Below are positions 7,276 through 18,574 of a DNA stretch of 37,074 nt, piece by piece. The notes below the pieces were generated by a model. That model saw nothing but the letters and a program-made list of their open reading frames with translations. It had not been told where the DNA came from and made no database searches. Numbering within the stretch: position 1 is the stretch's first letter; every line of letters starts with the position of its first letter. Both the position numbers and the translations under genes were made by a program. The stretch is from Deltaproteobacteria bacterium (GTDB lineage: Bacteria > Desulfobacterota > Desulfobaccia > Desulfobaccales > 0-14-0-80-60-11), in NCBI GenBank assembly GCA_030018495.1, contig JASEFS010000034.1, positions 1 to 37,074 on the forward strand. The letters run 5' to 3'.

Positions 7276-8376
7276 TCAGCCCCTTGCTGCCGCAACGACG
7301 CGCTTGTCCAAACGAGACCCCAGTTCCGCCTCAGTGGGGCTGGCCCCGAACACCCCCTGCCAGATGCGCGGGCTTTCCATGCAGAGATAGATTTCCACCC
7401 CCGGCAAAGCCTGCTCCAGCCATTCCCGCAGCCGGCCGTACAGCTCCAGGCGCAGTGTCTTGAAATAGCGCAGCTTGCCGTCCGGGGCCAGGACCATCTC
7501 CGCCGCGGCGAAGCGGCAGGAGGGATACCGGGTCATGGTGATTTCCCGCAAGGCCGGCAGAAAGCGAAGGGCTCCCAGGCTTATCCAGACGACGGCTTCA
7601 GGTGACACGGCCGCGGCCAGCCGGGCCACCGTGTCCCGGTAGGCCTCCTCCCAACCCGGGAAATAAATGATGGGGTCGAAGTGAAAGGCCAGGCGGAAAC
7701 CCGCGTCCTGGGCCTGCCGGGCGGCCTTGAGACGGGCGCCCAGCGAGGCTGAGCCCCTCTCCGCATTCCTGACGATAGCCGGGGGATTGAGGGACCAGGC
7801 GAAGATCACCTGGCGATTGGGACCCAGGGGCAACAGTGGCGCCAAGTCGTGCCACTTTGTCTTAATTTCCAGGACCGCCCTCGGATGACGGGCAAAAAAC
7901 GGGATGAGGCGTTCATTTAGCCCCATGATTCCGTCCAAGGCCAGGCTGTCGCCGAATTCGCCGGTGCCCAGGCGCCGGATTTTTTCCGGATCTTCCGCCA
8001 GCTTCTGATCCAACTCGGCCAGCAGGTCCTCTATGTTGACGAAAATAGTGGTGACGGGAAGATTGATATAGCTTTGCAAAATGCAGTAAGCGCAGTCAAA
8101 GGGGCAATTGACCGTCACCTGCAAGGTTTGATAGCCGCAGCAGACATAGTCTCTGGTGCCCGGACACGGGCGCCAAAAAGGGCCTTTTTGTAAAGCCAGG
8201 AGCAGGGTGGTTTTGGACTCGGCCAGCCACAGGGCCGGATCAGCCGCAGGTCGCCGCAACGCCGAGATATCAGGAATTTCCTCTACCGGAACGTCGGGCA
8301 GGCGCGCCAGAATGCGCCGCGTCGTTTCGTAACCCTGGACGCCGTTTTCCAGGATGATTTTCCGGAAGGACTTCAT
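7276..8376 (-). CDS. Spore-photoproduct-lyase-like radical SAM protein
   Basis: A 366-residue protein with the radical SAM cluster CPFDCAYC (Cys91, Cys95, Cys98) followed by LQSY, the arrangement of the SPL family rather than generic radical SAM enzymes. Further Cys residues (71, 79, 80) precede the cluster. SPL proper repairs the 5-thyminyl-5,6-dihydrothymine photoproduct in spores; homologues are widespread in non-sporulating deltaproteobacteria, where their substrate is not established as far as I know. Later segments (FGDSLALD, EIKTKW, WSLNPP, FHFDPII) match barrel strands of the family. The start at 8376 lacks a good ribosome site, so a slightly different start is possible. The nearest upstream coding trace on this strand is the phosphatase remnant. 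Confidence 0.82.
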   Translation of the reverse strand: MKSFRKIILENGVQGYETTRRILARLPDVPVEEIPDISALRRPAADPALWLAESKTTLLLALQKGPFWRPCPGTRDYVCCGYQTLQVTVNCPFDCAYCILQSYINLPVTTIFVNIEDLLAELDQKLAEDPEKIRRLGTGEFGDSLALDGIMGLNERLIPFFARHPRAVLEIKTKWHDLAPLLPLGPNRQVIFAWSLNPPAIVRNAERGSASLGARLKAARQAQDAGFRLAFHFDPIIYFPGWEEAYRDTVARLAAAVSPEAVVWISLGALRFLPALREITMTRYPSCRFAAAEMVLAPDGKLRYFKTLRLELYGRLREWLEQALPGVEIYLCMESPRIWQGVFGASPTEAELGSRLDKRVVAAARG

Positions 8377-8452
8377 AGACCAAGAACGGCGGCAACCTCA
8401 CCTATAACCTGGGAGGTATTCACCCATACTCCCTGCCTTGTCCGGTTATCTC

Positions 8453-16853: not shown

Positions 16854-17375
16854 ATGTATTCCCAAACCGTCATGGATCATTTCAAAAATCCCCGCAATGT
16901 CGGCGAAATTCATGATGCCGACGGGGTCGGCGAAGTAGGCAATCCCGTGTGCGGGGATATGATGAATATCTATATCAAGGTGAAGGACAACCGCATCGAT
17001 GACATCAAGTTCAAGACCTTTGGGTGCGGCTCGGCCATTGCAGTGTCCAGTATGATTACGGAAATGGCCAAAGGCAAGACCCTGGAAGAAGCCATGAAGA
17101 TCACCAACAAGGACGTAGCCGAGGCTCTGGACGGTCTTCCCAAGAACAAGCTGCATTGCTCCAATCTGGGGGCCGACGCCCTGCACGCGGCCATCAAGAA
17201 TTACCTGGACCGCAAGGCCGGCAAGGTGGTTGACCTGGAAAAAGCCCGGGAAGAGCACGTCAAAGCCCCTGGCGGCGAAGGCTGCTACTGCCCCTACTGC
17301 CAAAAGGAGGTAGCCGAAGAGGCCCCCTTCTGTCTGTTTTGCGGCACGGAAATTCCCCACGAACACGACCACTAA
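16854..17375 (+). CDS. iscU: IscU/NifU-type Fe-S scaffold with C-terminal zinc ribbon
   Basis: A 173-residue scaffold for Fe-S cluster assembly. The IscU_N domain (1 to about 125) has the three cluster cysteines: Cys33 in NPVCGD with the conserved Asp35, Cys58 in FGCGSA and Cys102 in LHCSNLGADAL. Unlike ordinary IscU (about 125-130 residues), a linker then leads to a zinc-ribbon-like tail with CPYC (146-149) and CLFC (160-163), plus Cys144 and a His-rich end. The LPPVK chaperone motif of classical IscU is replaced by LPKNK. The start is set at 16854 by a GAAGGGAG site; an in-frame upstream ATG at 16794 lacks support. It is followed after 23 bases by the NifS-like gene, so the two form an operon. 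Confidence 0.92.
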   Translation: MYSQTVMDHFKNPRNVGEIHDADGVGEVGNPVCGDMMNIYIKVKDNRIDDIKFKTFGCGSAIAVSSMITEMAKGKTLEEAMKITNKDVAEALDGLPKNKLHCSNLGADALHAAIKNYLDRKAGKVVDLEKAREEHVKAPGGEGCYCPYCQKEVAEEAPFCLFCGTEIPHEHDH

Positions 17376-17398: not shown

Positions 17399-18574
17399 AT
17401 GGGCGTCATCTACCTTGATCATCTATCCGGCACGCCTCTGCACCCCAAGGTGAAAGAGGCCATGATCCACCACATCAACACGGTCTATGGCAACCCGGTG
17501 AGCGACCACCGCATGGGGCAGGCGGCCTCCCAGGCCCTGGAAAAGGCCCGGGAGCAGGTGGCGGCTCTCATCAACGCCGGCGATCCAACGGAAATTGTCT
17601 TTGAATCCGGCGGCACCGAGTCGGTTAACCACGCGATCAAAGGGGTGGCCATCGGCCTCAGGGAAAAAGGCCGGCACATCATCACCACCAATATTGAGCA
17701 CAAATCGGTCCTCAATTCCCTGCGCACCCTGCGGCTCCTGGACTATCAGGTGACCTCCCTGGACGTCGATGCCCACGGCTTGGTGGACCCGGCCGCGGTG
17801 GAAAAAGCCATCACCCCGGACACCATCCTGATCAGCATCATGCTGGCCAACAATGAAATCGGCACCCTGGAGCCCATCGCGGACATCGCCAAGATTGCCA
17901 AAAAAAATAAAGTGCTGTTACACACTGATGCGGTTGACGCAGTGGGTGTGATTCCGGTGGACGTGAAAAGCCTGGGCGTCGATCTCCTGAGTCTGGCGGC
18001 CAACCAGTTCTATGGCCCGCCGGGAGTCGGGGCGCTCTATATCAAGAAGGGCACGCCGGTGTGGCCGCTACTTGACGGGGGTATGCAGGAGAACAAGAAA
18101 CGGGCCGGCACCGAAAACCTCATCGGCATCGTCGGCTTGGGCATGGCCGCGGAGTTGGCCAAGCAGGAGATGGCTGAGAGGGCTCCCCGGCTTCAGGCCC
18201 TGCGGGACCGCCTGCAGGAGGGTTTGGTGGCCCGCATCCCCGATATAGTCATCAACGGCCATCCCACCCTGAGGCTGCCGCATCTGCTGTCAGTTTCGTT
18301 CAAGTACATCGAAGGCGAGAGCCTGATGCTCATGCTGGATGATGAAGGCATTTGCGTCTCCACCCGCTCCGCCTGCGCGTCGGGGTCGCTGAGGGCCTCC
18401 CATGTGCTCATTTCCACCGGCCTGGATTTCGCCACGGCCCAGGGGACGCTGCTCTTCAGTCTGGGGCGGGACAACACCGAGGCCGATGTGGATAAAGTGA
18501 TCCAGGTGCTGCCGGGTATCGTCCAGACCCTGCGCGACATGTCGCCCCTTTACAAAAAGGAGCAGGCCGGATAG
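17399..18574 (+). CDS. NifS/IscS-like class V aminotransferase lacking the PLP lysine
   Basis: A 391-residue protein with the NifS/IscS fold. The PLP-stacking His (EHKSVLNS, H101), the HTDAVDAVG block with the pyridine-binding Asp, the RAGTEN block and the mobile-loop cysteine (SACASGS) are all present. The decisive oddity is the Schiff-base position: where desulfurases have Ser-x-His-Lys before the GP-G loop, this protein has AANQFYGPPG with Gln203 (codon 18005-18007). The Gln of the usual D-A-x-Q is Asp. Without the lysine, standard cysteine desulfurase chemistry is not expected. From memory, Archaeoglobus fulgidus IscS also lacks this Lys (Asp instead) and was proposed to supply a cysteine ligand to IscU. 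The start has GAGG nine bases upstream, and a terminator follows. Confidence 0.88.
   Translation: MGVIYLDHLSGTPLHPKVKEAMIHHINTVYGNPVSDHRMGQAASQALEKAREQVAALINAGDPTEIVFESGGTESVNHAIKGVAIGLREKGRHIITTNIEHKSVLNSLRTLRLLDYQVTSLDVDAHGLVDPAAVEKAITPDTILISIMLANNEIGTLEPIADIAKIAKKNKVLLHTDAVDAVGVIPVDVKSLGVDLLSLAANQFYGPPGVGALYIKKGTPVWPLLDGGMQENKKRAGTENLIGIVGLGMAAELAKQEMAERAPRLQALRDRLQEGLVARIPDIVINGHPTLRLPHLLSVSFKYIEGESLMLMLDDEGICVSTRSACASGSLRASHVLISTGLDFATAQGTLLFSLGRDNTEADVDKVIQVLPGIVQTLRDMSPLYKKEQAG

Follow-up and report, generated by a model that had tools for sequence, protein, structure and literature searches.

The window, by which we mean the whole stretch of 37,074 nucleotides of deltaproteobacterial DNA that was analysed, encodes an IscS/NifS homologue without the catalytic lysine, which is probably an IscS with a dead PLP site (a pseudo-desulfurase) that would serve IscU as a docking platform and offer it a loop thiol as ligand, the sulfur being made elsewhere. 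The family of Lys-less IscS proteins to which it belongs probably contributes to building Fe-S clusters without sulfur made from cysteine. A few archaeal Lys-less cases are already known, and the bacterial and archaeal family is large and little described; a literature search of partial coverage returned no description of the bacterial Lys-less family, of its link to TusA or of its link to a zinc ribbon, nor any activity, binding or complex data on a bacterial member.

The iscU-iscS gene pair and its active site

The Lys-less gene lies on the forward strand at 17399..18574 and encodes 391 aa matching PF00266 (1.1e-75); its ORF contains DLLSLAANQFYGPPGVGALY. It starts 23 bp after the end of its partner, an iscU/nifU-N scaffold gene on the same strand (16854..17375; 173 aa; PF01592, 6e-52). 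In a profile search, the window IscU reached 209 bits with TIGR03419, above the cutoff, and its closest PDB match is Archaeoglobus fulgidus IscU (4eb5_C). It ends in a C-terminal zinc ribbon (CPYC...CLFC, residues 145-166, 17286..17351, forward strand; PF13240 above cutoff). The window IscS scored 491 bits against TIGR03402 (NifS), below the cutoff of 531. Elsewhere in the window, at 7276-8397 on the reverse strand, an encoded protein resembles spore photoproduct lyase by eye.

Aligned with E. coli IscS, for which the exact sequence from the PDB was taken as reference, the window IscS is altered at four catalytic positions, namely Gln183 to Asp, His205 to Asn, Lys206 to Gln and Arg354 to Leu (E. 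coli numbering). Both the ORF and the alignment bear out the original prediction that Asn202 (AAC, 18002-18004) and Gln203 (CAG, 18005-18007) stand where His-Lys is expected, within the motif AANQFYGPPG, and also its remarks that the Gln near the pyridine-binding Asp is changed (Asp180 of the window protein, 17936..17938, on E. coli Gln183) and that the mobile-loop Cys is intact (Cys326, 18374..18376, on E. coli Cys328). A fourth change had been overlooked: Arg354, the binder of the substrate carboxylate according to structural work on NifS/SufS, is replaced by Leu352 (18452..18454, like the other sites on the forward strand). The residues corresponding to Thr76, His104, Asn155, Asp180, Thr243 and Cys328 of E. 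coli are kept. An AlphaFold2 model of the protein has a mean pLDDT of 90.7, with values below 50 only at 226-231 and in the Cys loop (324-331), and structure comparison places it close to human NFS1, E. coli IscS and A. fulgidus IscS (4hvk: VIA Z 52, rmsd 1.1).

Signature, constraint and distribution of the Lys-less family

Sequencing error or chance behind Asn-Gln is excluded, since the Lys is also replaced in 20 more orthologues at family level, taken from separate genomes (18 with Gln, 2 with Ile), and in two same-order orthologues (Gln). None of the close orthologues found within the class has the lysine; in its place stands Gln or, in two of them, Ile. In the phylum and beyond, the site is occupied by Gln, Pro, Ala, Asp, Thr, Ile, Ser, Arg, Val, Asn, Met or Leu. 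Because full-length profiles failed to split Lys-less from Lys-bearing copies, sequences were fetched and read directly.

In an alignment of 288 distinct IscS/NifS sequences (E. coli numbering), whose counts include kin sequences and do not equal independent events, Gln183, His205, Lys206 and Arg354 are all present in 165 and Lys206 is absent from 123. None of the four residues is left in 111 of these 123, and the other 12 retain one or two (eight His205 only, two His205 and Arg354, two Gln183). No Lys-bearing sequence among the 165 misses another of the four; Gln183 and Arg354 each occur in 165/165 Lys-bearing and 2/123 Lys-less sequences. No relocated conserved Lys was found in the Lys-less rows, where Lys exceeds 60% only at E. 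coli positions 84, 93, 139 and 389. This almost joint loss, with no new Lys in exchange, strongly supports the desulfurase inactivity that had been predicted, which we infer here from sequence: the residues gone would be the Lys of the internal aldimine, the Gln holding the cofactor oxygen, the His next to the Lys and the Arg for the L-cysteine carboxylate.

Other parts of the protein are conserved. Cys328 is present in all rows of the 288 that cover the site, one frameshifted row being gapped there, and Asp180, Glu77 and Arg240 are kept in all 288 sequences. About 97% or more of the Lys-less rows keep each fixed residue (four in all) of the C-terminal LRxxSP motif, and 104-105 of their 105 IscU partners keep the three cluster Cys and the Asp (positions Cys37, Asp39, Cys63, Cys106). 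Pairwise dN/dS among 21 family orthologues has a median of 0.19 and a maximum of 0.34; the Lys-less genes are under purifying selection. Some individual loci deviate in their own ways. One Lys-less iscS (L099) has its frame broken exactly at the Cys loop; three loci with AHNT, AQMT and AHLT signatures (L231, L258, L276) are further Lys-less variants adjoining iscU, with a second Lys-less copy in two genomes; and two loci near tusA, from Heimdallarchaeota and Methanosarcinaceae (L181, L208), have Thr at the Lys site and Asp for His104 and keep His205 and Arg354.

In a well-supported bacterial clade with 41 representatives, the window IscS stands together with the second Lys-less paralogue of its host. 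A single clade with A. fulgidus IscS2 was unrejected by the AU test on a 111-row set (p 0.777), whereas a 50-row set minus 24 trait-linked columns gave a borderline result against it (p 0.041). As these tree tests disagree, we gave up the claim that the Lys was lost independently.

Among 49 evenly drawn genomes of the phylum, 17 hold a Lys-less copy, and all 17 hold a Lys-bearing NifS as well. iscU is adjacent to 20 of 23 Lys-less versus 30 of 61 Lys-bearing copies in this sample, and dsrA occurs in 14 of the 17 Lys-less genomes versus 12 of the 32 others (Fisher p 0.006; p 0.013 when collapsed by family). The Lys-less IscS is thus tied to sulfidogenesis in the 49 genomes, but not strictly. 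Named carriers include Asgard archaea, Bathyarchaeota, ANME-2, Dehalococcoidia, Thermodesulfovibrionia, Smithella and Aminicenantes, and judging by organism names, from which the lifestyle was taken, the carriers appear to come mostly from anaerobic groups. A candidate for a desulfurase-free genome, a Bathyarchaeota chromosome with a Lys-less copy as its only NifS-type gene, was dropped; it also has a Lys-bearing SufS-like gene.

Sulfur source and role of the Lys-less IscS

The host genome, 99.97% complete, has three NifS-type genes: the window gene, a second Lys-less gene and a stand-alone Lys-bearing gene. The last, found in the search for a canonical desulfurase that the original prediction had suggested, is without iscU, and its Cys loop resembles that of selenocysteine lyase. 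Two IscU genes were found, both paired with a Lys-less IscS, and no SufS was found in the host genome. The second Lys-less gene (C8; motif GPALGAPKG) lies in the order tusA-iscS-rrf2-iscU, downstream of genes for HcyBio and a NIL-ferredoxin, which in methanogens are known to make homocysteine from sulfide; their position beside this operon fits sulfide use. At this locus, at about 4.4-8.5 kb of C8, the gene for IscU is followed by one for a protein that is HdrC-like by eye, and the locus as a whole is a probable case of sulfide-assimilation genes adjoining a predicted dead desulfurase. dsrA is present in the host genome.

According to the mechanism we propose, the pseudo-desulfurase, still with its IscS fold, its C-terminus facing IscU and its flexible Cys loop, would let IscU dock on it; the loop Cys would enter the IscU assembly site, and the cluster would be assembled on IscU from Fe2+ and sulfur that the Lys-less IscS does not produce, probably sulfide in a dsrA-bearing host. 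A putative structural or Cys-ligand role for IscU, as foreseen in the original prediction, draws support from the A. fulgidus precedent and from four features seen here: a loop Cys that does not vary, the LRxxSP motif, the adjacency to iscU and the purifying selection. For sulfide itself, which the prediction had also named, the dsrA link fits, but related loci often carry the gene of a persulfide carrier, TusA, and this part is not established. H2S is reported to restore Fe-S synthesis in anaerobic E. coli without iscS, iscU being required (PMC13015791).

Since many related loci carry tusA, persulfide delivery is a serious alternative to sulfide. TusA or the stand-alone Lys-bearing NifS would load the loop Cys, and the Lys-less IscS would act as a persulfide acceptor passing sulfur to IscU, with the first chemical step alone outsourced. 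Of 25 named Lys-less loci, 20 have a gene of the TusA family nearby, versus 0 of 54 Lys-bearing loci (Fisher 2e-14); L164, one of these 20, is a weak example within a long frame. The gene shares the strand of iscS and often lies 5-56 bp upstream of it, the distance being 16 bp in the second host operon. Where a genome has both kinds, tusA turned up only next to the Lys-less copy. With a Lys-bearing NifS in all 17 Lys-less census genomes, cysteine-derived persulfide could therefore arrive in trans. The E. coli TusA docks by IscS Cys328, but TusA and IscU are also competitors for IscS there (both from PMC11302665), and no tusA was found in the window or within the fetched flanks of the window gene's close relatives. 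For the window protein we regard such a relay as unlikely, though well worth keeping in mind.

Where TusA neighbours the related loci, it may deliver sulfur as persulfide; the window IscU has the zinc ribbon instead. Such a ribbon ends 66 of 105 IscU proteins of Lys-less loci versus 0 of 91 of Lys-bearing loci, and it is nearly exclusive with tusA at the Lys-less loci (64 ribbon only, 31 tusA only, 2 both, 8 neither), the window locus being of the ribbon type. This exclusion may represent one or a few events, because it partly tracks sub-clades.

Against the pseudo-desulfurase reading stands the retention of Asp180 and His104, with which the pocket may still accommodate PLP or PMP. A PLP enzyme of altered chemistry, which would turn over some substrate other than L-cysteine by means of non-covalent PLP/PMP or of another base, would agree with this and with the retained Glu77 and most of the phosphate-site Thr; it is nevertheless quite improbable, as Lys206, His205, Gln183 and Arg354 are lost, Asn155, Ser203 and, in 22 rows, Thr76 are changed among the Lys-less sequences, and a substitute conserved Lys is absent. 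That the gene is a decaying pseudogene or a functionless redundant copy is scarcely credible, for although the catalytic residues are gone, the constraint (dN/dS about 0.19), the intact frames and a loop Cys invariant over many phyla already contradict it. A docking and thiol-lending pseudo-desulfurase, by analogy with A. fulgidus, would be the simplest reading.

More tentatively, a desulfurase-free ISC branch could be widespread in anaerobic bacteria and archaea, in which the pseudo-IscS would provide a docking surface and a loop thiol, sulfur would come as sulfide or via a dedicated TusA, and a zinc-ribbon IscU would replace the TusA partner in the window lineage. To standard models the Lys-less genes resemble cysteine desulfurases, so the sulfur pathways of many anaerobes may be misannotated. 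The four-residue signature of a broad family, together with the TusA and zinc-ribbon links, makes of the few archaeal cases known so far a question open to testing: by what route Fe-S clusters can be assembled without desulfurase chemistry, a matter of relevance to early anaerobic life.

Comparison with known Fe-S systems

The window IscS fits the type of A. fulgidus IscS2 (IscS2-IscU system; PDB 4HVK, 4EB5, 4R5F), which likewise has the IscS fold, a replaced PLP lysine (Asp199), the loop Cys and an IscU partner. The two proteins share 44% identity, and the positions of Gln183 and Arg354 are also changed in A. fulgidus; they differ in the replaced pair, Asn-Asp in IscS2 and Asn-Gln in the window. 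The A. fulgidus precedent named in the original prediction is found in the literature, where the Lys-less IscS is reported to be inactive (PMC7585200) and its Cys321 to be a cluster ligand (PMC9769115). Members of the A. fulgidus clade have a tusA neighbour, and several have an IscU with a fused redox-like tail, whereas the window IscU has the zinc ribbon. At five Asn-Asp loci of this clade (L147, L148, L150, L160, L164), IscU has an added domain of about 100 aa at its C-terminus, which in L160 weakly matches Pyr_redox (PF00070).

A second archaeal protein, IscS1 of Methanosarcina acetivorans, is also reported to lack the catalytic lysine; it is one of three copies, and the recombinant protein went into inclusion bodies (PMC7585200). 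Canonical IscS/NifS proteins (E. coli IscS; 9wep) have the fold, the loop Cys and the C-terminal IscU-facing motif in common with the window IscS, but possess Gln183, His205, Lys206 and Arg354, all four of which the window protein is without. Among the minimal two-component Fe-S systems, MIS and SMS, the latter is retained mostly in archaea and uses sulfide (PMC12192291), and the host genome has an SMS-like SufC-SufB pair (SmsC/SmsB-like), its ATPase bearing a C-terminal CEKC. MIS has been described with a cysteine desulfurase, whereas the corresponding partner in the host genome is Lys-less.
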